Source of the DNA: Arcuatula senhousia
Lineage: Eukaryota; Mollusca; Bivalvia; Mytilida; Mytilidae
Reading direction: 5' to 3'
Assembly: GCA_963971305.1 (NCBI GenBank)
Contig: OZ020307.1
Coordinates: 10,677,501-10,741,500 of the forward strand
Length of the DNA stretch: 64,000 nt
In this document: positions 19,140 through 50,466 of the stretch, piece after piece
How the letters are laid out: the number at the start of each line of letters is the position of its first letter
How positions within the stretch are numbered: position 1 is the stretch's first letter
Position numbers and translations under genes: made by a program
The notes under the pieces: generated by a model
What the model was told of the DNA's origin: nothing
Database searches by the model: none
Seen by the model: the letters and a program-made list of their open reading frames with translations, nothing else

Positions 19140-19145
19140 TACGAG
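19140..19145 (+). repeat. Target-site duplication, left copy (TACGAG)
   Basis: TACGAG directly precedes the element terminus AGTAGTATAG and is repeated directly after the other terminus at 34701-34706. Six-base duplications are a hallmark of Polinton/Maverick integration. TACGAG also occurs in the minisatellite unit (GAAGTACGAGCATGG), so the pre-insertion site was an ordinary repeat unit. Confidence 0.85.
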
Positions 19146-19368
19146 AGTAGTATAGCGTGCCACTATAGAACACTTTGACCCCGATGACCCCGAGTTCATT
19201 CCCATAGGCTCCATGTTAAATCGTTGCTATTTTTGGTCCTGAATACCCACCCAAGATTTCATACAGTAAAGTCGTGTGCAGTCATGCGGAACGGCGACTC
19301 GTCCCTTTCTTTCGCCCCCTTTTAGTTCGTCACAAGTTTCTATTATCTATTATCAACTCTTATCTTTA
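19146..19368. repeat. Outer terminal region, left
   Basis: Begins AGTAGTATAGCGTGCC and is mirrored at 34479-34700. It is about 220 bp of unique non-coding sequence between the terminus and the telomere-like block, and presumably holds the replication/terminal-protein end. A diverged relative of its inner part (CCATAGGC, TTAAATC, CCCAGATTTCA, AATCATG-GGAA) is visible at 57936-58020. Confidence 0.7.
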
Positions 19369-19369
19369 A

Positions 19370-19509
19370 CGTACCCTAATCCTAACCCTAACCCTAGCCC
19401 TAACCCTAACCCTAATCCTAACCCTAGCCCTAATCCTAACCCTAGCCCTAACCCTAACCCTAATCCTAACCCTAGCCCTAACCCTAATCCTAACCCTAAT
19501 CCTAACCAT
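19370..19509. repeat. Telomere-like (CCCTAA)n block, left arm
   Basis: About 140 bp of CCCTAA units with interspersed CCCTAG and TCCTAA variants, mirrored as TTAGGG units at 34357-34475. The right copy is 18 bp (three units) shorter, which accounts for a shift in the palindrome register. A frame through it encodes only PNPNPS repeats. Confidence 0.85.
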
Positions 19510-19554
19510 TTGTTTTGTTAGTGTCGCCCTGTCATTTCTATGTTTAATATAGTT

Positions 19555-19740
19555 TTACTCCCCCTCCCCCTCCTCCTTCTTTCCTCATTTTTCCCTCCTC
19601 CTCCTCCTCCTCCTCATTTTTTCCTCATTTCCCCTAATTGTCCTCCTCATTGTCCCTCATTTTCCTCATTTCCCTCCTCATTTTCCTCATTTCCCTCCTC
19701 ATTTTCCCTCATTTTCCTCATTTCCCTCCTCATTTTTTCT
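19555..19740. repeat. Pyrimidine-rich CCTCATTTTCC minisatellite, left arm
   Basis: C/T-only runs with the unit TTTCCTCATTTCCCTCCTCA, mirrored as GA-rich sequence at 34131-34310. In the right arm the tract is split from its partner sequence by the HINE-like insertion. Confidence 0.8.
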
Positions 19741-19914
19741 TGTATTTTTCGTCTTTTGAGCTTGTTTTGTTCATGTATGGCTCAACTCTAATTGGTTCTT
19801 TTCTTTTTTTTTGTTTGGTTCGCCCTTTATGGGCTCTTTTTTTTGTCTTTGTTATTGTATTGATTGCTTTTATTTTCTTAAGTTTTCAATAAAAACTCAA
19901 AATCAGGTACAACT

Positions 19915-19938
19915 TTTATTAACATTCTACGTTTTATT
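19915..19938 (-). terminator. Polyadenylation signals of the left polymerase gene
   Basis: On the minus strand two AATAAA hexamers (TTTATT at 19933-19938; second at 19915-19920) lie 20-45 bp after the polymerase stop codon, as in the mirrored right arm (32655-32660 and 32673-32678). Confidence 0.7.
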
Positions 19939-19957
19939 TACATTCTATCTTTCAATT

Positions 19958-22900
19958 TCAATATCCATATGGTCTGGTGGTTAAATCGTTCATGATCACT
20001 CTTTTGTCAAATACAATTCTATAATCTTTCTTTTGTGAAACGGTTAACAGTTTTTGATTGCTTCTTTGGATCTTGTTATCGTCTCTCACTGTCCTGATAT
20101 CGTTTCTGTTGATGGTGACCATCTCCTTGATGGTGTCAAAGTTGATGTCCAAAGCATTCTTATAGTTCAATGTTATTCCACGGACTTTGCACATAGTTCT
20201 GTTTCCTGCTTTCTCTGGGACGGCTAGTTTATACGCATAGTTTTTTGGTCCTCCAGTGACAAACTCCGTAATAGTATTTCCGGGTACTTCGTCCGTCAAA
20301 TCTCCCAAGTAGTCTCCCAGCTTAGGCCTCCATTCTCCAGGTTTGGTGGTAAAAACAATCGAATCTGTATCGCAGTACAATGTTCTTGGTCCCAAATTCT
20401 CCAGATAAGTATATAGTTTAAGTCTGGCCTGGGCGGTAGTATAGGCGGCTATGACGACGTTTGTTTTCTTTTGGGTTTCAATGAATTCTTCTTTATATTT
20501 CCATCGTAATTCCACCATTTCATCGTTAACAAACTGTATTCCGGTCACTTCAATTTTATCGCTGGTTAACATGTCGAAGTATTTCTTTTGTTCTGTAATG
20601 TAGGTGGTCTGTTGCATGTTATTTCTTTGTCCAAACTTGCCCCAAAAGCTGTTCAACATTAGTTTGGCTAGAGACCTGATGCCGGGGTTCTTTTTTATCT
20701 TGTTATAGTCTAACTGTATCCCTTCCTTTTCTTCGTAGTTCTTGATATATTGCTGTTTAGCCTCTTCAGATTGACACCATTCTGGCCAGCCACTAGCTTC
20801 TTGTTTCATTTTCAAGAATGTATTGATGTAGTCCGTGAAGAGTCCTCCAGACTTCCTTCCGGGATCGTACTGTTCTACCTCTTCGAAATGCCATATTTCG
20901 TAGATGGTTAAGATGGAATATCCCTTTTCCAAGGCCTTCTTTAACTCATCTGTCACCCAAGTTCCCGTTATAGCTCTATCTTTTTCAGTATGGTTACAAG
21001 TCTCCTGCTGGTAGGTTTCCGTACAGGTACGACAGAGTGGGAACATCAGTTTGTTGTTGATCTTGGTTGGTAAGACGGGGATGTATAGGTTTTTGGGCGG
21101 TAGTACTTTACATTTCACCAATCCTTCGTACTCGTTGATGTCCCCAAAGTTTTCGGTGATGATCAATGGATGACCTTTGGGTACTTTTCCGGTTTTGTTG
21201 ACAAACGGATAGAGCGATGTAACGTCATAGTAGTTTATATTGTCTTCTCCTGTCTGTTTGTACAAGGTAAAGGCTTCTGTTCTTCCTCCGTAGAAAGCAT
21301 CTCGTGGTTCCAAAGCAGGGATCATCTCTAAGGAATTTACATAGGCACGAAGTGTTGGATCTTGTTCTATCTCTTTATCGAAATCACATTCCCATTTCTC
21401 TACGTAGGAGTATCCTTCTGCTTCCAAATAAGTCTTTTTCTCTAGTGTTCGTTGATGAAGATCGTTCATAAACATGTTGTTGACCGTATTGATGGTCTCT
21501 CTGGAATAGCATCTGGGACAGCCGTGCCAATAACAACCGTGAAATTCATACACAGTTCCATTGTCGTATCCGTCTACTCTGTAGGTTCCAATCTGCTTCT
21601 CTCCTCCGTTTTGGGCGTGTTGAATTCTCGAATCTTTCTTTGCTGATATATGTTTTATCCACTTCATAGCTTTGATGGAGTGCTTATGTTCTGGTTGGTA
21701 GCCTTGCGCTGGGATGAGCCCAATGGTGTTCCACCGTAGAAACTTGGATCGAAAGACTAGGTTGCAGGCGGATGCTATAGTGATACTCTCTTGGAAGGGG
21801 TCGATTGGAGTTCCGTCTAAGGTGTCCATGAATAGTTGTCGGAAGGTTAAACAGGCTTTTCTCAGGATGTCTACGTCTGTGATACAGTACTTCAAGAGAT
21901 CTTCTTGGACTTCAAATGGTTCGTTCCTGTGTTCTTCGTACCATTTCACGAATGTTTCGCGGTCTTCTGTTTTCATACCATTTGGATTGTAATAATTGAT
22001 GTCTGGAAGAGTTTCTAATCGGATGTTTTGGTTTTCCTTTGTGTTAAACAGATGTGGAAAGTATCCTTTGTGGAGTTCCTCGAATCCAAACATTTTCGGG
22101 AGTTTGGCTAAGGCAGTGGGTAGAAAGTTGAGGGAATCTATCATCCGTATGCTGCAGTTTGAAATCGTTACAGACATGTTCTTGGCACCGTTGGGGATTA
22201 TCTTGGGTTGAATTCCACGACGAAACAGGTATTGCAGAACGGGGATAGAGTCATATCCTTTAAAGTTGTGGCAGATAACGGTGGAGTTGTTGTTGTTTCC
22301 GGAAAATAGCCAGTTGCAAAAGTCGTTGTTGGCGTTGGGTCCACTAAAGACCAGTTGGTTCTGTCCACATTTCCCGCAGGTACTCTCTTCAGTTACTTCC
22401 TTCTCCATACAGACGGTACAGACTTTTTGAACCACGCATAAGTTGGGTCGATGTTCCTTGGCTCCGCAGGTACTAGCTTTACAGTGTGCACATCTTCCGT
22501 CGGTGTCAGGTTGGTACCCCATTTCGCATTCTATGAGGTCGTCTTGTGTGCATTCAAAATCAAAGAAGATGTAGGTTTGTATTTCTGGAGGATCTTCGAT
22601 AACTATAGGTGTCATGTAACACTGATGGTCTGTATCGCAGTATCGTTTACAGGATGGACAGTACATCTCACCACATACATGGTTGGTTTTCCTTTTTTCC
22701 ATGTTGACGGTGTGGCCACAGTCTTTACACTTGTAGTACCATTTACATGTTGAGTTGATTTTCTTTGTTTGCTCCAAATGGAGTTGGAAGCACTCTTTTC
22801 CTCTAAAGTTTCGGCCACATTGGCTACAGTTGATCCAATTGTCTTCGCAGGGCTCGTGTATCTTCTTACAAAGGATGCATGGGTTGTTACATACATGTGT

Positions 22901-24013
22901 TTCCTTGTTACTATATCCCTTTTTACACTTGTTGCAATAATAGTTTCTGGTCAAGAATCCTGTTACAGTGGTGATGACATCGTAATGATCGTCGTGGTGG
23001 TAAAGGTAGATCTTCTTCTCTGCATCTGGTCCCTCATAGATAATCCCGTTGAAGTAGTCTTTGGAGAAAACGGTTACTTGATATTCCGGCAGTACAGCTT
23101 GGAATCTTTTAAGTTCTTCAATACCGCATGGGCCTTTTGATACTTTGGCTTTTTCGTGAAGTTTTTCTGCTAATTCCTGTTGAATACATCTTCCTTGGCG
23201 GATAGTGTCCCACATTGAGTGCTTATCGATCCTGGCTTTAGCAGTAACAATGGCTCTAGCACAACACAGTTCGTCTCGGTTCTGTATCCTGACGAAACTT
23301 CTTTTATCTTTCAGCATTCTCTCGAGATCAACGAAGTTGCATCTTTTGCGCCCGGATCCTTTGGGAATAGATACGTGGAGGACATCTAATTCTAAACTTC
23401 CGTCCAATACAAACTCCTCATGAGATTGTAATACTCTCTCTATTTCCTTTAATAATAGTTCTGTAGTCAGGTCCTTGAGTTGTAATATGGGAAGGGCAAT
23501 CGGGAAGTCGAGGGAGTTGGTTTCAATTGTCAGTTTTACGAGGTCGTGTTCTTTCATCTCTTCGCCGATAGTTTGCAGGATGGAATCGAATAATCGATGT
23601 AGTGTTCTTATGATGGAAGGCAGGTCCGTGACTTCAAATGCCTTAAAGGTGACGGTATAATGATTTCTCGAAGTTCCAAACTTGAGTATTCTTTTCTTCT
23701 CCTGCCGTTTGATGGTGTAATAGGATTTCGGATCATTCATGTGAAACGGTTGCCCTGCTCCTCTTTGTCCATGTCTTTGCTGATGTAACTCTAAAAGGCG
23801 TTGGGTGGCAAAGGCCTGGTTGCATTGGGTACATTCGTAACCCATTTGGTGGCGGGTCATGTGAGCTTGTAGATTCTCCCGCCTTGTAAAATTCTTGGTG
23901 CATCTCGTACACGAGTAAGTCTCTCGGTGGTTGGTCCATCGTCTATGACGATGTAGCTGACTCATCTTCTCAAAATTGGCTTCACATTGGTTGCAGGTAA
24001 ATTGCTTAGCCAT
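19958..24013 (-). CDS. Protein-primed-type family-B DNA polymerase with zinc fingers, left copy
   Basis: About 1351 residues, taking the ATG at 24013 that directly follows a 3' splice-site-like stretch (TTTTTATTTCAG). Order of domains: three C2H2 fingers (C7/C10/H23/H29, C35/C38/H51/H55, C61/C64/H77/H81); a region of unknown role; a second cysteine-rich region (about 350-480); 3'-5' exonuclease motifs FFDFECT (D485, E487), HNFKGYD (N583, D588) and YCITD (Y709, D713); a Vsr-like module (about 775-880, GCYWHGC at 826-832, then KWECDF); polymerase motif A DVTSLYP (D930), motif B KLMLNSFWG (K1117, N1121) and motif C YCDTDS (D1215, D1217). All expected catalytic residues are present and the frame is open, so the protein may be active. 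It would copy the element's linear DNA, probably primed by a terminal protein. It differs from the right copy at residue 705 (D here, E there). Antisense frames are shadows. Confidence 0.9.
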   Translation of the reverse strand: MAKQFTCNQCEANFEKMSQLHRHRRWTNHRETYSCTRCTKNFTRRENLQAHMTRHQMGYECTQCNQAFATQRLLELHQQRHGQRGAGQPFHMNDPKSYYTIKRQEKKRILKFGTSRNHYTVTFKAFEVTDLPSIIRTLHRLFDSILQTIGEEMKEHDLVKLTIETNSLDFPIALPILQLKDLTTELLLKEIERVLQSHEEFVLDGSLELDVLHVSIPKGSGRKRCNFVDLERMLKDKRSFVRIQNRDELCCARAIVTAKARIDKHSMWDTIRQGRCIQQELAEKLHEKAKVSKGPCGIEELKRFQAVLPEYQVTVFSKDYFNGIIYEGPDAEKKIYLYHHDDHYDVITTVTGFLTRNYYCNKCKKGYSNKETHVCNNPCILCKKIHEPCEDNWINCSQCGRNFRGKECFQLHLEQTKKINSTCKWYYKCKDCGHTVNMEKRKTNHVCGEMYCPSCKRYCDTDHQCYMTPIVIEDPPEIQTYIFFDFECTQDDLIECEMGYQPDTDGRCAHCKASTCGAKEHRPNLCVVQKVCTVCMEKEVTEESTCGKCGQNQLVFSGPNANNDFCNWLFSGNNNNSTVICHNFKGYDSIPVLQYLFRRGIQPKIIPNGAKNMSVTISNCSIRMIDSLNFLPTALAKLPKMFGFEELHKGYFPHLFNTKENQNIRLETLPDINYYNPNGMKTEDRETFVKWYEEHRNEPFEVQEDLLKYCITDVDILRKACLTFRQLFMDTLDGTPIDPFQESITIASACNLVFRSKFLRWNTIGLIPAQGYQPEHKHSIKAMKWIKHISAKKDSRIQHAQNGGEKQIGTYRVDGYDNGTVYEFHGCYWHGCPRCYSRETINTVNNMFMNDLHQRTLEKKTYLEAEGYSYVEKWECDFDKEIEQDPTLRAYVNSLEMIPALEPRDAFYGGRTEAFTLYKQTGEDNINYYDVTSLYPFVNKTGKVPKGHPLIITENFGDINEYEGLVKCKVLPPKNLYIPVLPTKINNKLMFPLCRTCTETYQQETCNHTEKDRAITGTWVTDELKKALEKGYSILTIYEIWHFEEVEQYDPGRKSGGLFTDYINTFLKMKQEASGWPEWCQSEEAKQQYIKNYEEKEGIQLDYNKIKKNPGIRSLAKLMLNSFWGKFGQRNNMQQTTYITEQKKYFDMLTSDKIEVTGIQFVNDEMVELRWKYKEEFIETQKKTNVVIAAYTTAQARLKLYTYLENLGPRTLYCDTDSIVFTTKPGEWRPKLGDYLGDLTDEVPGNTITEFVTGGPKNYAYKLAVPEKAGNRTMCKVRGITLNYKNALDINFDTIKEMVTINRNDIRTVRDDNKIQRSNQKLLTVSQKKDYRIVFDKRVIMNDLTTRPYGY

Positions 24014-24770
24014 CTGAAATAAAAATAACACAGGTAAGTATAAAGTTGTCTATTGTTTCCTCTTTTTTAATTGTATACGTTTAAAATTATATGTCGTCAA
24101 TTGATTCCTTCTCTTTTAAATTCTATGCCTTTCAAATTATATATTGTCTATTGTTTCCTCCTCTTTTAGTACCTCATTGGTACCTCTGCTTCTTTTAGTA
24201 GTATGCCTTTCAAAGTTAAGTTGGATATGTATGAGTCATACCTTTTCTCTTCGTTAAAACACGACTGAACTCTTTGGTGTCTAATCGTAAAATGAATTCA
24301 TTTCAAATGGTTTACCTGTATAATGGATTGTACCACGTGATCATGTCACGTGACTTCTGGATCAAACCGGTTAGAACTGGTTTGGACTTGATTTTACGTT
24401 TTGTAAGTTTTCATCGAATTGCTTTTTTTGGAATCGGTTCTTTAAATTTTTATGTTTGTTGGTTTTTCATCAACATATTTTCTTAACGGAAAGATTTTGT
24501 AAGTTTGTTTTCGTAGTTTGATGTTTTTTCATCAACAGATTTTCTTAACGGTAAGATTTTGTAAGTTTGTTTTCGTAGTTTGTTGTTTTTTCATCAACAG
24601 ATTTTCTTTTGTGGTAAGATTTTGTGAGTTTCTTTTGTAAGTGGAAGGTTTTTCGTCAATGCATTTTGATTTTGTTTGAATTTGATGTACCGATTTTCGT
24701 TTTTAAGTCAAACGTTTAGATCTCTGTCTTGTATTTTTGTGTCGAAAACGCTTCAATATGTATTTTTAAA
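24014..24770 (-). promoter_or_regulatory. Polymerase leader with probable 5' intron, left arm
   Basis: On the minus strand a donor-like AAAG|GTATGA (near 24243) and the acceptor TTTTTATTTCAG just before the ATG could frame a ~230-bp leader intron; the right arm mirrors this (28350-28579). Further upstream a ~65-bp motif (GTAAGTTTGTTTTCGTAG, TTTTTCATCAACAGATTTTCTT) is repeated three to four times. A C/G difference between the arms lies at 24412/28181. Confidence 0.45.
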
Positions 24771-24953
24771 GAGGGAAAATGGCTTAAATTGGGCATTTTA
24801 GGGTGAAAATGGGTTAAATGGGGCTAAAATGGGTGTTTTGGGGGTAAAATGGGTGAATTGGGGGGGATAATGGGGGGAAATGGGTAAAATGGGGCTAAAA
24901 TGGGTGTTTTGGGGCTAAAATGAGTAAAATGGGGGGGTATTGGGGGATATTGG

Positions 24954-24986
<33 letters not shown>

Positions 24987-24990
24987 GGAG
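24770..24990. repeat. G-rich tract and (CTG)n, left arm
   Basis: GGGTAAAATGGGTG-like units with runs of three to seven G on the plus strand, followed by about eleven CTG triplets (24955-24985). The mirror image is at 27600-27820. The palindrome register shifts by 3 bp between the two genes, so one arm carries an extra triplet's worth of sequence in this part. The G-runs could form quadruplexes. Confidence 0.8.
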
Positions 24991-25154
24991 GGTAAATGGC
25001 TGCTATTGCTGCTCCAGTAGAGGTAGTTTAGGGGGGAGAGGGATTTTGCTGTTCCATGAGAAGAATGAAAACGCGTATACTAGTTCGGATGGTTTATTGA
25101 GTTAAAACATTCTTCTTCAGGTAGTCCTTAAACGATCGCTTCTTCTTTAATGGG

Positions 25155-25676
25155 TCAGTTGGTTTCTTTTGGATGTTCCTTGTTTGTCTTCGGCTTTCTT
25201 CTTCTTGAGGTCTTTGTAGGCTTGTGGTTCATGGGTTTCTTGGTCTTTACACCGTTGAGGTTCTTTACTTCCTTGGACTTTGCTAGTCCTCTTCTTGAGT
25301 TCTTTGTAGGCTTTACTGATTTTCCATTATGGTTCATGGGCTTCTTGGCCTTTACAACGTTAAGGTTCTTTACATCCTTGGTCTTCTCAGACTTAATCGA
25401 TCGCCGTGTCTTCTTTAACTTTGCCATCTGTTCTCTCTTTGAGCCTTGTAGTTTTGTCAAGTGTCTTATTTCCTTGTATATTGCTTTTCCTAAACTTTCA
25501 AGTCTATGTTCCGCACTCTTTGGACGTCTTGAATGTTCTCCCGGTGGTACAACGTGTCCAGTCTTAGTTTGTGTTGCCCTTTTCTCTTCCGAGTCTACAT
25601 GCTTCACCTTCTCGTGGCGTGTAACATCCCCCGGCCATGAAAACCGTCTATTGCATTCGGAGCACTGATAAGCCAT
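25155..25676 (-). CDS. Basic C2H2 zinc-finger protein, left copy
   Basis: 173 residues, identical in sequence to the right-arm copy. One N-terminal C2H2 finger (C5, C8, H21, H26) is followed by a lysine/arginine-rich tail with internal repeats (VKNLN-VK-KKPMNH twice, around 102-116 and 136-151) and several KRRR-type nuclear-localisation-like clusters. The ATG at 25676 lies about 52 bp after a TATAAAG box (25728-25734) and an AATAAA signal follows the stop (25093-25098), so it forms a complete transcription unit. The charge suggests a DNA-binding role (genome-condensing, terminal-protein-like or regulatory). I do not recognise a family, and function is not established. The antisense open frame of 172 residues is a shadow. 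Confidence 0.75.
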   Translation of the reverse strand: MAYQCSECNRRFSWPGDVTRHEKVKHVDSEEKRATQTKTGHVVPPGEHSRRPKSAEHRLESLGKAIYKEIRHLTKLQGSKREQMAKLKKTRRSIKSEKTKDVKNLNVVKAKKPMNHNGKSVKPTKNSRRGLAKSKEVKNLNGVKTKKPMNHKPTKTSRRRKPKTNKEHPKETN

Positions 25677-25727
25677 GTTTCCTCTTCTGTGTCTAACGTA
25701 AAACTAACTCAATCTCTATCTGTTGCT

Positions 25728-25734
25728 CTTTATA
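25728..25734 (-). promoter_or_regulatory. TATA box of left zinc-finger gene
   Basis: CTTTATA on the plus strand is TATAAAG on the coding strand, 52 bp before the ATG; mirrored at 26856-26862. Confidence 0.65.
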
Positions 25735-25893
25735 TCCCTCTTTCCCTTATCCCTAACCATAATCTCTAACCCTAACTCTCCCCTTTTTTCCTTTCACTCA
25801 CCTATTTCACTTTCTTAACCTTATATTCGTTATGTAAAGGTCTTTTAGCTCTTTAACGATATGTAACACATCTACCCTCACTTAAAATGTGGA

Positions 25894-26062
25894 ATTGGTC
25901 ACTTTGTGGTCAAGTCCTGACTGACCACTGACCAATATCATTCTTATCACCCGAGAATCTGTGTCTAGACTTCTTAGGCTATCTAACGATATACAACAAC
26001 TCTATATTAGACTTAATTTAAGGATTGGTCATTTTGTGGTCAAGCCCCTAATGACCACTGAC
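25894..26062. repeat. GGTCAGTGGTCA repeats, left arm
   Basis: Two units, each with TTGGTCA-TTTGTGGTCAAG and TGACCACTGACC, at about 25894-25934 and 26022-26063, are mirrored at 26527-26568 and 26657-26697. The same motif stands in the relic at 48738-48775. Repetition, mirroring and conservation between elements suggest a protein-binding or origin-like site. Short frames crossing here are not genes. Confidence 0.65.
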
Positions 26063-26167
26063 CAAAACACAGTATATCATCGGAAAGTCATTGTTCTAGA
26101 GAAGACAATGCAACAAACCGGAAGGAAATCGGTCAAGGAATAACAAAGTTAGGGCCCGTTAAACACT

Positions 26168-26177
26168 AGTAGTATAG
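26168..26177 (+). repeat. Internal copy of the element terminus (left of loop)
   Basis: AGTAGTATAG, the same ten bases that begin the element at 19146, here followed by ATGCACCGAT. Its inverted partner CTATACTACT is at 26411-26420. A related element end at 48471 also starts AGTAGTATAGATG. Confidence 0.8.
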
Positions 26178-26187
26178 ATGCACCGAT

Positions 26188-26400
26188 CAAGTCCCATTTC
26201 TCGGGACGTCCCCGACGTCCCATAGGCTGCCTGTGACGTCATATCCACTTCCGGTCCGCCATCTTGAAGCACGGTGGCCATCTTGCTTCCGGCTCCGCCA
26301 TTTTGCTTCTGGTCGGCCATCTTGCTTCCGGTGACGCCACATCCGGTCCTTTTGGAATCTCATTTTCCCGCGAAAATTCGAATTCGAGATATCCGAGCTA
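26188..26400. promoter_or_regulatory. Unique central loop with E2F-, CRE-, ETS- and YY1-like sites
   Basis: The only part of the element that is not inverted-repeated. It contains TGACGTCA (CRE/ATF type, 26234-26241), CTTCCGG (ETS type, 26248, 26286, 26325), GCCATCTTG (YY1 type on the other strand, 26258, 26277, 26316; variant GCCATTTTG at 26297) and TTTTCCCGCGAAAA (E2F type, 26363-26376). It lies between two divergent gene pairs, about 500 bp from each zinc-finger start, so it would serve as a shared enhancer or promoter. Site identities rest on consensus match only. Confidence 0.65.
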
Positions 26401-26410
26401 ATCGGTGCAT

Positions 26411-26420
26411 CTATACTACT
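26411..26420 (-). repeat. Internal copy of the element terminus (right of loop)
   Basis: CTATACTACT, inverse of 26168-26177. The two face each other across 253 bp. Just inside them the flanking 20 bp are also similar (TTTCTCGGGA versus ATATCTCGAA on the other strand), as expected of two element ends. Confidence 0.8.
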
Positions 26421-26526
26421 AGTGTTTAACGGGCCCTAACTTTGTTATTCCTTGACCGATTTCCTTCCGGTTTGTTGCATTGTCTTCTCTCTAGAACAAT
26501 GACTTTCCGATGATATACTGTGTTTT

Positions 26527-26697
26527 GGTCAGTGGTCATTAGGGGCTTGACCACAAAATGACCAATCCTTAAATTAAGTCTAATATAGAGTTGTTGTATA
26601 TCGTTAGATAGCCTAAGAAGTCTAGACACAGATTCTCGGGTGATAAGAATGATATTGGTCAGTGGTCAGTCAGGACTTGACCACAAAGTGACCAATT
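26527..26697. repeat. GGTCAGTGGTCA repeats, right arm
   Basis: Mirror of 25894-26062: GGTCAGTGGTCA at 26527-26538 and 26657-26668, each followed by CTTGACCACAAA-TGACC. Confidence 0.65.
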
Positions 26698-26855
26698 CCA
26701 CATTTTAAGTGAGGGTAGATGTGTTACATATCGTTAAAGAGCTAAAAGACCTTTACATAACGAATATAAGGTTAAGAAAGTGAAATAGGTGAGTGAAAGG
26801 AAAAAAGGGGAGAGTTAGGGTTAGAGATTATGGTTAGGGATAAGGGAAAGAGGGA

Positions 26856-26862
26856 TATAAAG
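26856..26862 (+). promoter_or_regulatory. TATA box of right zinc-finger gene
   Basis: TATAAAG within AGGGATATAAAGAGC, 52 bp before the ATG at 26914. A TTAGGG-like stretch (GAGTTAGGGTTAGAG) lies about 40 bp upstream. Confidence 0.65.
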
Positions 26863-26913
26863 AGCAACAGATAGAGATTGAGTTAGTTTTACGTTAGACA
26901 CAGAAGAGGAAAC

Positions 26914-27435
26914 ATGGCTTATCAGTGCTCCGAATGCAATAGACGGTTTTCATGGCCGGGGGATGTTACACGCCACGAGAAGGTGAAGCATGTAGACTCG
27001 GAAGAGAAAAGGGCAACACAAACTAAGACTGGACACGTTGTACCACCGGGAGAACATTCAAGACGTCCAAAGAGTGCGGAACATAGACTTGAAAGTTTAG
27101 GAAAAGCAATATACAAGGAAATAAGACACTTGACAAAACTACAAGGCTCAAAGAGAGAACAGATGGCAAAGTTAAAGAAGACACGGCGATCGATTAAGTC
27201 TGAGAAGACCAAGGATGTAAAGAACCTTAACGTTGTAAAGGCCAAGAAGCCCATGAACCATAATGGAAAATCAGTAAAGCCTACAAAGAACTCAAGAAGA
27301 GGACTAGCAAAGTCCAAGGAAGTAAAGAACCTCAACGGTGTAAAGACCAAGAAACCCATGAACCACAAGCCTACAAAGACCTCAAGAAGAAGAAAGCCGA
27401 AGACAAACAAGGAACATCCAAAAGAAACCAACTGA
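26914..27435 (+). CDS. Basic C2H2 zinc-finger protein, right copy
   Basis: Same 173-residue protein as at 25155-25676: finger residues C5, C8, H21 and H26, then a basic repetitive tail. It has its own TATA box and an AATAAA at 27492-27497. It is transcribed outwards from the loop, ahead of the polymerase gene on the same strand, with about 1.1 kb between them filled by the CTG/G-rich tract and polymerase leader. No change was found between the two copies at the protein level, which means both arms are being kept alike or are young. Confidence 0.75.
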   Translation: MAYQCSECNRRFSWPGDVTRHEKVKHVDSEEKRATQTKTGHVVPPGEHSRRPKSAEHRLESLGKAIYKEIRHLTKLQGSKREQMAKLKKTRRSIKSEKTKDVKNLNVVKAKKPMNHNGKSVKPTKNSRRGLAKSKEVKNLNGVKTKKPMNHKPTKTSRRRKPKTNKEHPKETN

Positions 27436-27491
27436 CCCATTAAAGAAGAAGCGATCGTTTAAGGACTACCTGAAGAAGAATGTTTTAACTC

Positions 27492-27497
27492 AATAAA
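27492..27497 (+). terminator. Polyadenylation signal of right zinc-finger gene
   Basis: AATAAA 57 bp after the stop codon; mirrored at 25093-25098. Confidence 0.65.
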
Positions 27498-27599
27498 CCA
27501 TCCGAACTAGTATACGCGTTTTCATTCTTCTCATGGAACAGCAAAATCCCTCTCCCCCCTAAACTACCTCTACTGGAGCAGCAATAGCAGCCATTTACC

Positions 27600-27603
27600 C
27601 TCC

Positions 27604-27636
<33 letters not shown>

Positions 27637-27820
27637 CCAATATCCCCCAATACCCCCCCCATTTTACTCATTTTAGCCCCAAAACACCCATTTTAGCCCC
27701 ATTTTACCCATTTCCCCCCATTATCCCCCCCCCAATTCACCCATTTTACCCCCAAAACACCCATTTTAGCCCCATTTAACCCATTTTCACCCTAAAATGC
27801 CCAATTTAAGCCATTTTCCC
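27600..27820. repeat. (CAG)n and C-rich tract, right arm
   Basis: Mirror of 24770-24990: about eleven or twelve CAG triplets followed by CCCATTTTA-type units with long C runs. Confidence 0.8.
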
Positions 27821-28349
27821 TCTTTAAAAATACATATTGAAGCGTTTTCGACACAAAAATACAAGACAGAGATCTAAACGTTTGACTTAAAAACGAAAAT
27901 CGGTACATCAAATTCAAACAAAATCAAAATGCATTGACGAAAAACCTTCCACTTACAAAAGAAACTCACAAAATCTTACCACAAAAGAAAATCTGTTGAT
28001 GAAAAAACAACAAACTACGAAAACAAACTTACAAAATCTTACCGTTAAGAAAATCTGTTGATGAAAAAACATCAAACTACGAAAACAAACTTACAAAATC
28101 TTTCCGTTAAGAAAATATGTTGATGAAAAACCAACAAACATAAAAATTTAAAGAACCGATTCCAAAAAAAGCAATTCGATCAAAACTTACAAAACGTAAA
28201 ATCAAGTCCAAACCAGTTCTAACCGGTTTGATCCAGAAGTCACGTGACATGATCACGTGGTACAATCCATTATACAGGTAAACCATTTGAAATGAATTCA
28301 TTTTACGATTAGACACCAAAGAGTTCAGTCGTGTTTTAACGAAGAGAAA

Positions 28350-28579
28350 AGGTATGACTCATACATATCCAACTTAACTTTGAAAGGCATACTACTAAAA
28401 GAAGCAGAGGTACCAATGAGGTACTAAAAGAGGAGGAAACAATAGACAATATATAATTTGAAAGGCATAGAATTTAAAAGAGAAGGAATCAATTGACGAC
28501 ATATAATTTTAAACGTATACAATTAAAAAAGAGGAAACAATAGACAACTTTATACTTACCTGTGTTATTTTTATTTCAG
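28350..28579 (+). promoter_or_regulatory. Probable 5' leader intron of right polymerase gene
   Basis: Donor-like AAAAG|GTATGACT near 28350 and acceptor TTTTTATTTCAG ending at 28579, directly before the ATG. The acceptor is convincing; the donor is a best guess. Confidence 0.4.
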
Positions 28580-31500
28580 ATGGCTAAGCAATTTACCTGC
28601 AACCAATGTGAAGCCAATTTTGAGAAGATGAGTCAGCTACATCGTCATAGACGATGGACCAACCACCGAGAGACTTACTCGTGTACGAGATGCACCAAGA
28701 ATTTTACAAGGCGGGAGAATCTACAAGCTCACATGACCCGCCACCAAATGGGTTACGAATGTACCCAATGCAACCAGGCCTTTGCCACCCAACGCCTTTT
28801 AGAGTTACATCAGCAAAGACATGGACAAAGAGGAGCAGGGCAACCGTTTCACATGAATGATCCGAAATCCTATTACACCATCAAACGGCAGGAGAAGAAA
28901 AGAATACTCAAGTTTGGAACTTCGAGAAATCATTATACCGTCACCTTTAAGGCATTTGAAGTCACGGACCTGCCTTCCATCATAAGAACACTACATCGAT
29001 TATTCGATTCCATCCTGCAAACTATCGGCGAAGAGATGAAAGAACACGACCTCGTAAAACTGACAATTGAAACCAACTCCCTCGACTTCCCGATTGCCCT
29101 TCCCATATTACAACTCAAGGACCTGACTACGGAACTATTATTAAAGGAAATAGAGAGAGTATTACAATCTCATGAGGAGTTTGTATTGGACGGAAGTTTA
29201 GAATTAGATGTCCTCCACGTATCTATTCCCAAAGGATCCGGGCGCAAAAGATGCAACTTCGTTGATCTCGAGAGAATGCTGAAAGATAAAAGAAGTTTCG
29301 TCAGGATACAGAACCGAGACGAACTGTGTTGTGCTAGAGCCATTGTTACTGCTAAAGCCAGGATCGATAAGCACTCAATGTGGGACACTATCCGCCAAGG
29401 AAGATGTATTCAACAGGAATTAGCAGAAAAACTTCACGAAAAAGCCAAAGTATCAAAAGGCCCATGCGGTATTGAAGAACTTAAAAGATTCCAAGCTGTA
29501 CTGCCGGAATATCAAGTAACCGTTTTCTCCAAAGACTACTTCAACGGGATTATCTATGAGGGACCAGATGCAGAGAAGAAGATCTACCTTTACCACCACG
29601 ACGATCATTACGATGTCATCACCACTGTAACAGGATTCTTGACCAGAAACTATTATTGCAACAAGTGTAAAAAGGGATATAGTAACAAGGAAACACATGT
29701 ATGTAACAACCCATGCATCCTTTGTAAGAAGATACACGAGCCCTGCGAAGACAATTGGATCAACTGTAGCCAATGTGGCCGAAACTTTAGAGGAAAAGAG
29801 TGCTTCCAACTCCATTTGGAGCAAACAAAGAAAATCAACTCAACATGTAAATGGTACTACAAGTGTAAAGACTGTGGCCACACCGTCAACATGGAAAAAA
29901 GGAAAACCAACCATGTATGTGGTGAGATGTACTGTCCATCCTGTAAACGATACTGCGATACAGACCATCAGTGTTACATGACACCTATAGTTATCGAAGA
30001 TCCTCCAGAAATACAAACCTACATCTTCTTTGATTTTGAATGCACACAAGACGACCTCATAGAATGCGAAATGGGGTACCAACCTGACACCGACGGAAGA
30101 TGTGCACACTGTAAAGCTAGTACCTGCGGAGCCAAGGAACATCGACCCAACTTATGCGTGGTTCAAAAAGTCTGTACCGTCTGTATGGAGAAGGAAGTAA
30201 CTGAAGAGAGTACCTGCGGGAAATGTGGACAGAACCAACTGGTCTTTAGTGGACCCAACGCCAACAACGACTTTTGCAACTGGCTATTTTCCGGAAACAA
30301 CAACAACTCCACCGTTATCTGCCACAACTTTAAAGGATATGACTCTATCCCCGTTCTGCAATACCTGTTTCGTCGTGGAATTCAACCCAAGATAATCCCC
30401 AACGGTGCCAAGAACATGTCTGTAACGATTTCAAACTGCAGCATACGGATGATAGATTCCCTCAACTTTCTACCCACTGCCTTAGCCAAACTCCCGAAAA
30501 TGTTTGGATTCGAGGAACTCCACAAAGGATACTTTCCACATCTGTTTAACACAAAGGAAAACCAAAACATCCGATTAGAAACTCTTCCAGACATCAATTA
30601 TTACAATCCAAATGGTATGAAAACAGAAGACCGCGAAACATTCGTGAAATGGTACGAAGAACACAGGAACGAACCATTTGAAGTCCAAGAAGAACTCTTG
30701 AAGTACTGTATCACAGACGTAGACATCCTGAGAAAAGCCTGTTTAACCTTCCGACAACTATTCATGGACACCTTAGACGGAACTCCAATCGACCCCTTCC
30801 AAGAGAGTATCACTATAGCATCCGCCTGCAACCTAGTCTTTCGATCCAAGTTTCTACGGTGGAACACCATTGGGCTCATCCCAGCGCAAGGCTACCAACC
30901 AGAACATAAGCACTCCATCAAAGCTATGAAGTGGATAAAACATATATCAGCAAAGAAAGATTCGAGAATTCAACACGCCCAAAACGGAGGAGAGAAGCAG
31001 ATTGGAACCTACAGAGTAGACGGATACGACAATGGAACTGTGTATGAATTTCACGGTTGTTATTGGCACGGCTGTCCCAGATGCTATTCCAGAGAGACCA
31101 TCAATACGGTCAACAACATGTTTATGAACGATCTTCATCAACGAACACTAGAGAAAAAGACTTATTTGGAAGCAGAAGGATACTCCTACGTAGAGAAATG
31201 GGAATGTGATTTCGATAAAGAGATAGAACAAGATCCAACACTTCGTGCCTATGTAAATTCCTTAGAGATGATCCCTGCTTTGGAACCACGAGATGCTTTC
31301 TACGGAGGAAGAACAGAAGCCTTTACCTTGTACAAACAGACAGGAGAAGACAATATAAACTACTATGACGTTACATCGCTCTATCCGTTTGTCAACAAAA
31401 CCGGAAAAGTACCCAAAGGTCATCCATTGATCATCACCGAAAACTTTGGGGACATCAACGAGTACGAAGGATTGGTGAAATGTAAAGTACTACCGCCCAA

Positions 31501-32635
31501 AAACCTATACATCCCCGTCTTACCAACCAAGATCAACAACAAACTGATGTTCCCACTCTGTCGTACCTGTACGGAAACCTACCAGCAGGAGACTTGTAAC
31601 CATACTGAAAAAGATAGAGCTATAACGGGAACTTGGGTGACAGATGAGTTAAAGAAGGCCTTGGAAAAGGGATATTCCATCTTAACCATCTACGAAATAT
31701 GGCATTTCGAAGAGGTAGAACAGTACGATCCCGGAAGGAAGTCTGGAGGACTCTTCACGGACTACATCAATACATTCTTGAAAATGAAACAAGAAGCTAG
31801 TGGCTGGCCAGAATGGTGTCAATCTGAAGAGGCTAAACAGCAATATATCAAGAACTACGAAGAAAAGGAAGGGATACAGTTAGACTATAACAAGATAAAA
31901 AAGAACCCCGGCATCAGGTCTCTAGCCAAACTAATGTTGAACAGCTTTTGGGGCAAGTTTGGACAAAGAAATAACATGCAACAGACCACCTACATTACAG
32001 AACAAAAGAAATACTTCGACATGTTAACCAGCGATAAAATTGAAGTGACCGGAATACAGTTTGTTAACGATGAAATGGTGGAATTACGATGGAAATATAA
32101 AGAAGAATTCATTGAAACCCAAAAGAAAACAAACGTCGTCATAGCCGCCTATACTACCGCCCAGGCCAGACTTAAACTATATACTTATCTGGAGAATTTG
32201 GGACCAAGAACATTGTACTGCGATACAGATTCGATTGTTTTTACCACCAAACCTGGAGAATGGAGGCCTAAGCTGGGAGACTACTTGGGAGATTTGACGG
32301 ACGAAGTACCCGGAAATACTATTACGGAGTTTGTCACTGGAGGACCAAAAAACTATGCGTATAAACTAGCCGTCCCAGAGAAAGCAGGAAACAGAACTAT
32401 GTGCAAAGTCCGTGGAATAACATTGAACTATAAGAATGCTTTGGACATCAACTTTGACACCATCAAGGAGATGGTCACCATCAACAGAAACGATATCAGG
32501 ACAGTGAGAGACGATAACAAGATCCAAAGAAGCAATCAAAAACTGTTAACCGTTTCACAAAAGAAAGATTATAGAATTGTATTTGACAAAAGAGTGATCA
32601 TGAACGATTTAACCACCAGACCATATGGATATTGA
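28580..32635 (+). CDS. Protein-primed-type family-B DNA polymerase with zinc fingers, right copy
   Basis: Second, intact copy of the ~1351-residue polymerase. Key positions in the DNA: exonuclease I motif around 30029 (DFE), exonuclease II around 30323 (HN...D), exonuclease III around 30704 (Y...D), Vsr-like GCYWHGC at 31055-31075, motif A at 31367 (D), motif B at 31928 (K...NS), motif C at 32216-32233 (YCDTDS). The ATG at 28580 is preferred to any upstream start because the bases before it form a splice acceptor. The stretch between motifs A and B is long, as in protein-primed enzymes with a TPR1-like insertion, but this was judged by length only. Two intact copies per element are unusual; Polintons normally carry one. 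Confidence 0.9.
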   Translation: MAKQFTCNQCEANFEKMSQLHRHRRWTNHRETYSCTRCTKNFTRRENLQAHMTRHQMGYECTQCNQAFATQRLLELHQQRHGQRGAGQPFHMNDPKSYYTIKRQEKKRILKFGTSRNHYTVTFKAFEVTDLPSIIRTLHRLFDSILQTIGEEMKEHDLVKLTIETNSLDFPIALPILQLKDLTTELLLKEIERVLQSHEEFVLDGSLELDVLHVSIPKGSGRKRCNFVDLERMLKDKRSFVRIQNRDELCCARAIVTAKARIDKHSMWDTIRQGRCIQQELAEKLHEKAKVSKGPCGIEELKRFQAVLPEYQVTVFSKDYFNGIIYEGPDAEKKIYLYHHDDHYDVITTVTGFLTRNYYCNKCKKGYSNKETHVCNNPCILCKKIHEPCEDNWINCSQCGRNFRGKECFQLHLEQTKKINSTCKWYYKCKDCGHTVNMEKRKTNHVCGEMYCPSCKRYCDTDHQCYMTPIVIEDPPEIQTYIFFDFECTQDDLIECEMGYQPDTDGRCAHCKASTCGAKEHRPNLCVVQKVCTVCMEKEVTEESTCGKCGQNQLVFSGPNANNDFCNWLFSGNNNNSTVICHNFKGYDSIPVLQYLFRRGIQPKIIPNGAKNMSVTISNCSIRMIDSLNFLPTALAKLPKMFGFEELHKGYFPHLFNTKENQNIRLETLPDINYYNPNGMKTEDRETFVKWYEEHRNEPFEVQEELLKYCITDVDILRKACLTFRQLFMDTLDGTPIDPFQESITIASACNLVFRSKFLRWNTIGLIPAQGYQPEHKHSIKAMKWIKHISAKKDSRIQHAQNGGEKQIGTYRVDGYDNGTVYEFHGCYWHGCPRCYSRETINTVNNMFMNDLHQRTLEKKTYLEAEGYSYVEKWECDFDKEIEQDPTLRAYVNSLEMIPALEPRDAFYGGRTEAFTLYKQTGEDNINYYDVTSLYPFVNKTGKVPKGHPLIITENFGDINEYEGLVKCKVLPPKNLYIPVLPTKINNKLMFPLCRTCTETYQQETCNHTEKDRAITGTWVTDELKKALEKGYSILTIYEIWHFEEVEQYDPGRKSGGLFTDYINTFLKMKQEASGWPEWCQSEEAKQQYIKNYEEKEGIQLDYNKIKKNPGIRSLAKLMLNSFWGKFGQRNNMQQTTYITEQKKYFDMLTSDKIEVTGIQFVNDEMVELRWKYKEEFIETQKKTNVVIAAYTTAQARLKLYTYLENLGPRTLYCDTDSIVFTTKPGEWRPKLGDYLGDLTDEVPGNTITEFVTGGPKNYAYKLAVPEKAGNRTMCKVRGITLNYKNALDINFDTIKEMVTINRNDIRTVRDDNKIQRSNQKLLTVSQKKDYRIVFDKRVIMNDLTTRPYGY

Positions 32636-32654
32636 AATTGAAAGATAGAATGTA

Positions 32655-32678
32655 AATAAAACGTAGAATGTTAATAAA
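32655..32678 (+). terminator. Polyadenylation signals of right polymerase gene
   Basis: AATAAA at 32655-32660 and 32673-32678, 20-43 bp after the stop. On the opposite strand TTTTTATTGAAAAC (32697-32710) also contains AATAAA, so a convergent transcript from the outer end could finish here. Confidence 0.7.
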
Positions 32679-32857
32679 AGTTGTACCTGATTTTGAGTTT
32701 TTATTGAAAACTTAAGAAAATAAAAGCAATCAATACAATAACAAAGACAAAAAAAAGAGCCCATAAAGGGCGAACCAAACAAAAAAAAAGAAAAGAACCA
32801 ATTAGAGTTGAGCCATACATGAACAAAACAAGCTCAAAAGACGAAAAATACAAGAAA

Positions 32858-34128
32858 TAAAAAGCTACGCCGAGCGCAGCATGATACGACCGCAACAAGT
32901 TGAACCCTGTACGTTGGAGGCCCAGTATGGATAGTCCATTGCTTTGGTCACATGAAGCCCATGGTGGACTTACAAAGCTTTTTGACACATGCATCCTGTG
33001 GTGGACTTAAAAAGGCATTTTTGACACATTTATATTTACATCAACATCTAATACAAAAAGCCTTATTTATATACATGTATTAATTTACAATTTTGGCCCT
33101 TTGACCCCTAATTTCTCAAAAACAGTAAAAATATTGCAAATCCGATTAATAAATAAGGCAGAAATATTAACAAAGAATCCAATGAAAAAAAGATTTTGAA
33201 AATCGGACCACAAATAAAAAAGTTGATTTTATGGGCGTGGCCTGTCTTTAGCCTCCCTGTAGCAATGTAATGGTGAAATACATATCAAAATCATTGACAC
33301 ATTAAGTAGATAGAATTTAATGATGAATTCAATAAAAAAAGAATTTTCAAAATCGAATGAATGATAAACATTCTACAACAGGTTTATCAATGCACCCGTT
33401 TTAGCCCTTTTTGGCCCTTTTTTCTAACACAGAAGGGGCCACAAACCCCAAATACAAAACCAACATTCCTTTAGTGGATATAATCATCATATTAAAACTT
33501 CATAACAATTAGCAGGCCCACTACAACTTAATTTTTGGTTTAAATGACAAACTTTTAAAAATGCTGTTTTTGGCCCCTTTGACCCCTAAATTCTCGAAAA
33601 CGGTAAGAGATATTGCAAATCTGATTGAAAAACGCAGGCAGGGATTTTCACAAGGATTCCAATGAAAAAAAGATTTTGAAAATCGGACAACAAATAAAAA
33701 AGTCAATTTTTTGGGTGTGGCCCCTTTTTGACCCCCAGTAGCAATGTAACGGTACAAGATACATCAAAGCCATTGATACATTTTGTTGACAGAATTTATT
33801 GAGGAATACAATAAAAAAAGAATGATCAAAATCAGATGAAAATTAACCATTCTAAAGACCTTTTGTCAATATACCCATTTTTGCCCCTTTTGGCCCTTTT
33901 TTCTTAAACGGTAGGGGCCAGAAACCCCAAATGCAATACCAACCTTCTTTTAGTGTTTATAAACATCATATCAAAATTTTATAACAATTGGTCAACCACA
34001 ACTCAAGTTATCGCACGGAAACCAAAGTGTCTACAGACGACGACAACGACAACGACGACGACAACGACGACAACGACAACGACATCGCCATAACATAATA
34101 CGATCGCAAAAATTTTGCGGTCGTATAA
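32858..34128 (-). mobile_element. HINE-like insertion present only in the right arm (family C)
   Basis: The uninterrupted sequence is seen in the left arm (TCCTCATTTTTTCTTGTATTT near 19727). In the right arm it is split after ATACAAGAAA by about 1271 bp beginning AAAGCTACGCCGAGCGCAGC and ending in a GAC-rich microsatellite and the hairpin GATCGCAAAAATTTTGCGGTC. The inside holds two or more ~420-bp degenerate repeats (TTTTGGCCC... TGACCCCTAATTTCTC). The same family, in opposite orientation, occurs at 44055-45552. It is a non-coding element. Confidence 0.85.
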
Positions 34129-34130
34129 AA

Positions 34131-34310
34131 ATGAGGAGGGAAATGAGGAAAATGAGGGAAAATGAGGAGGGAAATGAGGAAAATGAGGAGGGAAATGAGG
34201 AAAATGAGGGACAATGAGGAGGACAATTAGGGGAAATGAGGAAAAAATGAGGAGGAGGAGGAGGAGGAGGGAAAAATGAGGAAAGAAGGAGGAGGGGGAG
34301 GGGGAGTAAA
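34131..34310. repeat. GA-rich minisatellite, right arm
   Basis: Mirror of the pyrimidine-rich tract at 19555-19740. Confidence 0.8.
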
Positions 34311-34356
34311 ACTATATTAAACATAGAAATGACAGGGCGACACTAACAAAACAAAT

Positions 34357-34475
34357 GGTTAGGATTAGGGTTAGGATTAGGGTTAGGGCTAGGGTTAGGA
34401 TTAGGGTTAGGGTTAGGGCTAGGGTTAGGATTAGGGTTAGGGTTAGGGCTAGGGTTAGGGTTAGGATTAGGGTAC
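34357..34475. repeat. Telomere-like (TTAGGG)n block, right arm
   Basis: TTAGGG units with GATTAGG and GGCTAGG variants; mirror of 19370-19509, three units shorter. Confidence 0.85.
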
Positions 34476-34700
34476 GTTAAAGATAAGAGTTGATAATAGA
34501 TAATAGAAACTTGTGACGAACTAAAAGGGGGCGAAAGAAAGGGACGAGTCGCCGTTCCGCATGACTGCACACGACTTTACTGTATGAAATCTTGGGTGGG
34601 TATTCAGGACCAAAAATAGCAACGATTTAACATGGAGCCTATGGGAATGAACTCGGGGTCATCGGGGTCAAAGTGTTCTATAGTGGCACGCTATACTACT

Positions 34701-34706
34701 TACGAG
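34701..34706 (+). repeat. Target-site duplication, right copy (TACGAG)
   Basis: Directly follows CTATACTACT and matches 19140-19145. The minisatellite unit then continues in register (CATGGTGTC). Confidence 0.85.
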
Positions 34707-39692: not shown

Positions 39693-40836
39693 ATCATTTA
39701 TCTTGAAAACTATACAAGATATTTCAAAAATTTAAATTTCATATGATCAAGCACATCAAGATCTACATTTCATGTATTTAGGTCAAAGCTGTAGGACCAT
39801 TTCTATTAGGAGTTATTGTCCTTAAAACAACAAAATTTACCATTTTTCATTACTTTTCCCCTGAATTTCAAAGATTAACTTGTCTGACACTGTAAGACCA
39901 ACTGCATCTTAACTTGGCACACTTGTTTAATAGCATATATGCTACAACTCTATCGTTCATATTTTTGATTCGTAAAAAACATGGCTGCCATGGCTAAAAA
40001 TAGAACATACGGGGTAATTTTCATTTTTTTGCTAATAACTCAAAAATGGTTTCAGATATCAAAATTGTGCAAGAATCAAAAGTGATCAGCATATTAAGTA
40101 CCTGTCCTGAAATTTCGGAAAAAGATCTGACTGCTGATGTGGGAGTTATTGCCCTTTTTCTATTTTTTGCTAAATTTTGCACTTATTAAGCCCAATAACT
40201 TGAAAACTAACCAAGTTATTTCAGAAATTTAAAACGCATATGGTTAAGCACAATAATATCTACAAAATATATGTATCTGTGTAGTTCAGGTGAGTGATTC
40301 AGGCTCCTGGGAGCCTCTTGTTTCATGTTTTTGGCCTATAGAATGAAAACTACAGCAGATAGAGAAAAGCTGTTGCTTGCCTAAATGATGAGTTCATTTA
40401 GCTCTACAAAAGTCTTTATAGGGTGATATTTGTCAGATGACCCCTTATAGGGGTTACGGCCCTTAAAATAACGTTTTTTCATGTTTTTGGTCTTTAAAAT
40501 GAAAACTATAGCAGATTGAGAAAAGCTGTTGCTTGCTTAAATGTTCAGTTTATTTAGCTCTACAAAAGTTTTCAAAGGGGCGAAGTGTCAGATGACCCCT
40601 TATTGGGGTTATGGCCCCTAAAATAACATTTTTTCATGATTTGGGCCTATGGCTACAGAATGAAACTAAAGTAGATAGAGAAAAGCTGTTACTTGCTTAA
40701 ATGTTCAGCTCATTTAGCTCTAGAAAAGTTTTTATAGGGTTTACTTAGTAGTAGCTTAACTAGTATTTGCCTAATAGCCTATAGATTAGGCACCTAATAT
40801 GTCAGGTAAGTGATTCAGGCTCCTGGGAGCCTCTTG

Positions 40837-44054: not shown

Positions 44055-45552
44055 ATACGACCGCAAAAAATTTGCGGACGTATTATGGTATGATGCTGTC
44101 GTCGTCGTCGTCGTTGTCGTCGTCGTCGTTGTCGTCGTTGTCTGTTAACTTTTTAGTGTTTCCACAATAACTTTAGTTCCAGTTATCCGATTGCTATGAA
44201 ACTTGACAATGATGTTCCTTACCATAAAAGGATGAATGGGATTGATTTTGGGGGTCCCTCCATTTTTCGTTTAGAAATTAGGGGCCAAAAAAGGGCCAAA
44301 AATACTACTTTTTTGTTTGTTTCCACAGTAACTTTTGTTCTAGTTATCCAATTGCTATGAAATTTGACAGTGATGTTCCTTACCATACAAGGATGAATGG
44401 GATTGATTTTGGGGGTCCCCCCTTTTCTTGTTTCGAAATTAGGGGCCCAAAAGGGGCAAAAAATTCAAATATTTTACTTGTTTCCACCATAACTTTGGTT
44501 CTAGTTGGCCTATTGCTGTGAATTTTGTCAAGAATGTTTCTTACAATAAAAGAATGAACCTGATGAATTTTTGCACCCCCTTTTTCTCCGTTGTGTAATT
44601 AGGGGCCAAAAGGGGCCAAAATAAAAACTTTTTTATTTGTGGTCCGATTTTGAAAATTTTTTTTGCATGTTTGTTCTTGTCAAATAGCAGATACAAAATT
44701 AAGAATTAATTTTTGCGACCCCCCTTTTTTCCCCTATTACATAATTAGGGGCCAAATGGGGCCAAATTGAAACTTTTATTTGTGGTCCGATTTTGAAATT
44801 TTTTTTGCTAGTTTATTTTTGTCAAGTAGCAAATCCAAATTTGAGAATTTATTTTTGCGACCCCCACCCCTTTTTCACCTGTTACGTAATAAGGGGCTAA
44901 AAGGGGCCGAAAGCGAAACTTTTTTAATTCTTGTCCGATTTTGATAATTTTTTTTGCAAGTTTATTCTTGTCATGTAGCAGATTTATTTTTGTGTCCCCT
45001 TTTTTTACTGTTACGTTATTAGGGACCAAAAGGGGCCAAAATTGTAACTTTTTTATTTCTAGTCCGATTTTGAAAATTTTTTTTGCATGTTTGTTTTTGT
45101 CAAATAGCGGATACAAAATTAAGAATTAATTTTTGCGACCCCCCTTTTTTCCCCTATTACGTAATTAGGGGCCAAATGGGGCCAAAATCGAAACTTTATT
45201 ATTTGTGGTCAGATTTTGGAAAATTTTTTTGCAAATTTATTCTTGTCAGGTAGTGATTCTAAATTTAAGAATAAATTTTTGGGGCTGTAATCATAATTTT
45301 AAGAAAATTCTGGTTTGATTTTTAATTTTTTCCCCAAACATTATTCTTTTATAGAGTAGAATACAACATTCAAAATTTATATTTTACCCTCTGGGTGGAA
45401 AGTCCATCAGAGAAGCATGTGTCAAAAACCTTTGTCAGTCCACCATGGGCTTCATGTGTCCAAAACAATAGACTATCCATATTAGGCCTAAAACGTACAG
45501 AGTTCAACATGTTGCGGTCGTATCATGCTGCGCTCGGCGAAGCTTTTTATTA
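44055..45552 (+). mobile_element. HINE-like element, family C, plus orientation
   Basis: Left end TATACGACCGCAAAAAATTTGC (hairpin) plus a GTCGTCGTC microsatellite; interior of ~140-160-bp degenerate units (TTTGTGGTCCGATTTTGAAA, GAATTAATTTTTGCGACC, TTAGGGGCCAAA); right end GCGGTCGTATCATGCTGCGC and TCGGCGAAGC. Frames at 44808-45129 lie on these repeats. Confidence 0.7.
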
Positions 45553-49916: not shown

Positions 49917-50466
49917 TTGGCTTTCTCTCGCCGCATTTACGACAAACACGTTCCCCGTTCTAACTTTCAATGTTCTTTTCCAAAACATCTTTCAAAGATA
50001 AAATTTGTTACACACTGGAACAAGTTTGCAGTATGCTTGATTTCCTCATTGACAACATATTTGTCACCTTCGGAGGAGAGATTTTTCAACAACAAATCGG
50101 CATTCCAATGGGCACAAACTGTGCTCCTCTCCTCGCCGATTTGTTTTTATTATCTTACGAGACTGAATTTCTTCAGGGACTCGTAAAGAACAAGAAGATG
50201 AAAGAGGCAAGGTCATTTAATCTTACATTCAGATATATTGACGATGTCCTTTCTATCAATAACACTTCATTTGGTAGTTGGATTCCTTCAATATATCCTC
50301 CGGAATTGGAGATTAAAGAGACCACCGAATCTAATTGCTTCACGTCTTTCTTGGATTTGCACCTCGAATTTGACCCAGGTGGTCATCTCAGTACAAAAAT
50401 TTACGATAAACGAGACGATTTTAATTTTCAAATTATTAATTTTCCTAATCTACAGAGCAATATACC
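49917..50466 (+). pseudogene. Penelope-like reverse transcriptase, 5' part (copy I)
   Basis: A frame from about 49970 carries RT-type motifs: GIPMGTNCAPLLADLFL, then FRYIDDVLS (catalytic DD at about 50240) and the following YPPELEIKETT and FLDLHLEFD. A frameshift around 50000-50030 separates an upstream piece in another frame. At 50466 coding is cut by a transposon; it resumes at 56398. The family (VPADK and GIPMGT motifs in copy II, no integrase seen) fits Penelope-like elements better than LTR elements, but this is judged by eye. Not functional. Confidence 0.65.

Follow-up and report, generated by a model that had tools for sequence, protein, structure and literature searches.

How does a Polinton/Maverick-type element come to occupy a chromosomal locus as one giant palindrome? 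The question arises from a 64,000-nucleotide stretch of the genome of the bivalve Arcuatula senhousia (contig OZ020307.1, positions 10,677,501 to 10,741,500), referred to here as the window, in which the presence of a giant palindromic Polinton-type insertion is confirmed. The insertion is probably a snap-back (palindromic) dimer that derives from a shortened molecule of Polinton/Maverick type and was integrated as one unit. Its inverted repeat occupies window positions 19146–34700 (15,555 bp), with two arms arranged around a 213-bp loop. Specifically, the left arm (19146–26187, plus strand, 7,042 bp) starts with AGTAGTATAGCGTGCC, the loop (26188–26400, no strand assigned) forms the turn, and the right arm (26401–34700, minus strand, 8,300 bp including a nested insert) ends with CTATACTACT. 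The inner arms (19733–26187 against 26401–32861) share 99.86% identity over 6,461 columns, with 3 mismatches and 4 gaps, and the outer arms (19146–19737 against 34127–34700) align with 0 mismatches and a single 18-bp gap within a telomere-like array, giving an arm-to-arm divergence of 3 substitutions per ~7.0 kb. A chance origin of the arms was rejected. The near-identity suggests a young palindrome, and conversion from arm to arm could also maintain it. Telomere-like ACCCTA arrays lie inside both outer ends, at 19373–19507 and 34357–34473, and differ in length by 18 bp.

The right arm is longer than the left because a 1,265-bp host repeat (32862–34126, no strand assigned) is nested in it alone. 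Both ends of this insert match the repeat at 44055–45545, and the arm sequence is contiguous on either side of it. The first-pass annotation, which had described a palindrome with ~7-kb arms and a 213-bp loop, therefore stands for the loop and the 7,042-bp left arm, the nested repeat that brings the right arm to 8,300 bp having been missed. As an observation on the host sequence, the stretches at 32862–34126 and 44055–45545 form two members of one repeat family with conserved ends.

The insertion resembles Polintons/Mavericks in the family and fold type of its polymerase, in its AGTAGT//ACTACT ends and in its 6-bp target duplication. The outer termini AGTAGT...ACTACT correspond to the known Maverick end motif, such as (AGT)2//(ACT)2 (PMC8097293). 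The window contains 11 copies of the 10-bp terminus at up to 1 mismatch, where 2.66 are expected, and 0 of 100 shuffles reach this number; the count is inflated, however, because 6 of the 11 are mirror pairs within the palindrome. A protein-primed family-B polymerase, named in the first-pass annotation and identified here by Pfam and fold comparison, is intact in each arm, its frame comprising C2H2 fingers, an OTU-like domain and a phi29-like polymerase. The left copy (19958–24031, minus strand) is a 1,357-codon frame encoding 1,351 aa from the first ATG, and the right copy (28562–32635, plus strand; first ATG at 28580) differs from it by one residue. In addition, each arm contains a frame for a 173-aa zinc-finger/basic protein (25155–25676, minus strand; 26914–27435, plus strand), identical in the two copies, with 3 relatives among 27 candidates. 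Both genes begin near the loop side and run toward the outer end; in vertebrate Mavericks the polymerase belongs to a module at one end and usually points to the centre (PMC8097293).

In length the palindrome (15.6 kb, or 14.3 kb without the insert) falls inside the 12.7–24.6 kb range of intact vertebrate Mavericks (PMC8097293), an agreement that would fit a size limit, a single case in itself showing nothing. Unlike Polintons/Mavericks, the element carries only the polymerase and the small zinc-finger protein, each twice, and its arms measure 7,042 and 8,300 bp where the terminal repeats of intact vertebrate Mavericks span 46–1,447 bp (PMC8097293). The early claim that the arms far exceed known Polinton terminal repeats thus holds, and repeats of the usual tens to ~1,450 bp are not what is found here.

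The remaining genes expected of a Polinton were sought by two routes. The Pfam scan took in 10 of the 13 right-arm frames of at least 60 aa (the other three being 28654–28860 on the plus strand and 28107–28301 and 30947–31138 on the minus strand) and gave no match for an rve-type integrase, nor for ATPase, protease or capsid genes. Queries for tblastn were drawn from two related loci, L002 (CALIZB010000033.1), which combines a polymerase 47% alike with an rve integrase, and L004 (JACCHT010000018.1), a broken fragment on a mussel-symbiont contig. The distant L002 integrase found no counterpart, and the L002/L004 open reading frames read as capsid-like, protease-like and ATPase-like matched nothing in the palindrome, the best other match (E 0.38) lying outside it. 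Among these queries the integrase alone has a family match above the cut-off, the capsid-, protease- and ATPase-like names being our own reading; the tblastn absence is a modest test because the queries are distant and mostly without a family match. Little unoccupied space remains in the arms for further genes. Because integrase, ATPase, protease and capsid genes were not found by these searches, the ordinary Polinton identity implied at first pass does not extend to a complete element: in gene content this is a defective Polinton-type element, and in anatomy a snap-back dimer. Rfam gave 0 matches, and a profile search of solved structures listed 60 of 133 matches, every one a zinc-finger protein by name or region.

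The insertion site bears on how the palindrome arrived. Exact copies of TACGAG adjoin the left outer end (19140–19145, plus strand) and the right outer end (34701–34706, plus strand), placing the perfect 6-bp duplication outside both arms as originally proposed. A 41-bp satellite array surrounds the palindrome, and TACGAG is present in most satellite units, a richness that the first-pass annotation left unmentioned in taking the duplication as an insertion mark. The mark itself stands, being exact at the junction: when the palindrome and one TACGAG are deleted in silico, the array continues across the empty site, the spacing between adjacent TACGAG motifs at the join being 41 and 37 bp. Comparison of the two flanks (5,145 bp each) shows common satellite sequence in direct orientation and no inverted similarity at E up to 0.001. 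Because the duplication lies outside both arms and the flanks are direct, integration of the palindrome as one unit, also part of the original claim, is upheld. A simple fold-back (palindromic) read artefact was rejected because the flanks belong to one array running in the same direction, and such an artefact would give inverted flanks. Two independent insertions were likewise rejected, the mirror copies having 3 differences and one common loop. A misjoin added to a normal element whose repeats measure 0.6 kb was rejected as well, since the nested repeat is complete and the arm contiguous on either side.

The same evidence bears on two broader alternatives. In the first, an ordinary element lies at the true locus and its mirror arm is an assembly misjoin, in keeping with the near-identity of the inner arms and with an arm–loop–arm join that is known from the assembled sequence; but the flanks are direct rather than inverted, the right arm alone has a complete nested repeat inside an otherwise contiguous arm, and the loop is element-like, not adapter-like, making this account very improbable. 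In the second, a single-arm element was inserted first and was then turned, by host repair or replication, into an inverted duplication within the chromosome. Such events have a precedent in yeast chromosomes, where inverted repeats that are diverged and lie far apart fold back when long stretches of DNA are single-stranded, which leads to dicentric rearrangements (PMC10164571). A chromosomal inverted duplication would, however, be expected to include flank DNA or to lose one junction, whereas here the terminal motif marks the precise limit of each outer end, and the two ends have one 6-bp duplication in common; this route is considered improbable.

The centre of the palindrome suggests where a fold could have formed. 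The loop is bracketed by a 20-bp inverted repeat, composed of the central terminus AGTAGTATAGATGCACCGAT (26168–26187, plus strand) and its inverted counterpart (26401–26420, minus strand); the 20-bp ends are exact, and of the 20 positions that follow, 10 agree, a level that 0.92% of 10,000 shuffles of the loop attain. Within it, AGTAGTATAG begins at 26168 and its inverted copy lies at 26411–26420, and ACTAGT flanks the central 247 bp on both sides. Given this pair and the two ACTAGT copies, the initial statement that no duplication lies at the centre was too strong. The 213-bp loop resembles an element end elsewhere in the window (48471–48640), with 75.6% identity to 48522–48625 over 123 columns (E 3.1e-22). 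There, too, AGTAGTATAGATG stands before the loop-like stretch, and after it comes a stretch of 39 bp (87%) whose counterpart in the palindrome lies in the arm beyond the loop. Because the separate element at 48471 keeps AGTAGTATAGATG, the loop-like stretch and the 39-bp stretch in sequence, loop and arm together present the order of an element end. The loop also contains CTTCCGG, GCCATCTTG and TGACGTCA, which we take to resemble ETS, YY1 and CRE sites, and from its motifs it may serve as a candidate promoter of the genes running outward from it. Separately, 48471–49607 appears as the remnant end of a second, decayed Polinton-like element; it contains AGTAGTATAGATGG, an array of the CTTCCGG/CCATCTTG type and, at 49275–49607 of the minus strand, a zinc-finger frame.

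The ACTAGT copies also admit a different origin for the centre, in which the palindromic dimer arose loop-less in some other way and its exact centre was later hit by a miniature element of 247 bp with Polinton ends, an insertion that duplicated ACTAGT and also stabilised the palindrome. Perfect loop-less palindromes are unstable, which counts in favour of such a rescue, as do the 6-bp ACTAGT copies flanking these 247 bp and the terminal motif with which the centre begins and ends. Against it, the insertion must hit the exact dyad, and the loop and adjoining arm keep the order of the separate element end at 48471, as expected for a native end; this sequence of events is rated unlikely.

The preferred snap-back origin accounts for the anatomy through a short series of steps, whose order we infer. 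A linear protein-primed element would have lost most of its genes, keeping a loop-side end, the zinc-finger gene, the polymerase gene and a different outer end. During strand-displacement copying, the displaced single strand could fold back where, at the loop-side end, the short inverted repeat still brackets the 213-bp loop, and prime its own copying to give a hairpin. Another protein-primed round, starting at the outer end, would then open this hairpin, and the resulting dimer would have the polymerase gene twice and the same outer end on either side. This dimer presumably entered the satellite array with a 6-bp duplication, an integrase being supplied in trans by a complete relative, a supply proposed because none was found in the palindrome. 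As a snap-back dimer predicts, the outer ends are identical, the interior is mirror-symmetric around a short loop, and a short inverted repeat, perfect over 20 bp, lies at the turn.

Other linear replicons offer parallels. Vierula and Bertrand (1992, cited in PMC11071308) reportedly described, judging by the title of their paper, a deletion derivative of the kalilo linear mitochondrial plasmid that forms hairpin and duplex DNA, a similar case of a protein-primed linear replicon shortened by deletion; kalilo differs in being a Neurospora mitochondrial plasmid, whereas the present palindrome is integrated in a chromosome-type locus. Deletion plasmids of yeast pGKL1 comprise a hairpin and a palindromic dimer of the polymerase half of the linear plasmid, and the giant palindrome of the Tetrahymena rDNA grows out of a short inverted repeat located at one end. 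Adeno-associated virus (AAV) makes snap-back subgenomes, mirror genomes that are likewise shortened, have one type of end twice and travel with the complete virus; unlike the proposed route, AAV copies from a terminal hairpin with no protein priming, and the consulted part of the source contains no integrated example (PMC8235507). No palindromic Polinton was found among the open-licence papers searched by title and start of abstract.

Several points weigh against a snap-back origin. The outer and central termini are alike in their first 10 bp only, the further score of 36 falling inside the range of 300 shuffles, whose mean is 27.5 and largest value 51. The ACTAGT around the central 247 bp fits a late insertion at the centre as well. 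A strong hairpin is predicted for the centre (z -17) and lends no independent support because the palindrome itself implies it. Additionally, Foldseek alone gave no match for the N-terminal model at E up to 0.001 (a second fold list spans model residues 139–276 only), and neither a single-arm relative nor a free molecule nor a further palindrome was observed.

If the snap-back origin is correct, a mirror dimer with intact ends, a polymerase and a clean 6-bp duplication would be a genomic trace both of the free linear form and of fold-back during protein-primed copying. Mavericks have virus genes, yet Maverick particles have reportedly not been observed (PMC8097293), a question that would thereby become testable. 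It would further suggest that Polintons, like other linear replicons, produce mirror genomes of reduced length, which may exploit their parents. A more far-reaching idea, entertained tentatively and thought rather doubtful, is that the palindrome is no dead by-product but a minimal replicon. Its hairpin/dimer cycle would need one end type and one polymerase, and it could spread to new sites as a palindrome and a satellite of complete Polintons, borrowing their integrase and perhaps, its length being that of a normal element, their capsids.

Relatives were sought in other sequences. Among genome contigs, query A1 returned 58 stretches and 5 loci, of which L005 and L006 match over 33 residues only. 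Among viral contigs, the same query returned 26 stretches and 1 locus (31% over residues 1103–1231), and neither query A3 (82 stretches) nor the protein query (1 stretch) found a relative. Comparison of L001–L004 (L005 and L006 lying outside it) detected no large palindrome, which is no test of recurrence because these loci are short, broken or distant. The Polinton-type genes of L002 and L004 stand on contigs filed under bacterial genome bins and are probably host animal DNA.

Minor features complete the window. Residues 829–886 of the polymerase frame at 28562–32635 show a weak match (E 0.022) to phrog_13076, an endonuclease family; polinton polymerases with an inserted homing endonuclease domain have been reported (PMC11071308). 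A Pfam Glyco_hydro_2 match barely above the cut-off, in a 94-aa frame overlapping the polymerase, was taken as chance. Immediately 5' of the first polymerase ATG, a splice-acceptor-like TTTATTTCAG (28570–28579) was noticed by eye. A 191-aa frame at 49970–50545 has a reverse-transcriptase match below the cut-off (E 0.022), and a tandem repeat family with 155–156-bp units occurs at two distant places, 26–1052 and 40317–40740.
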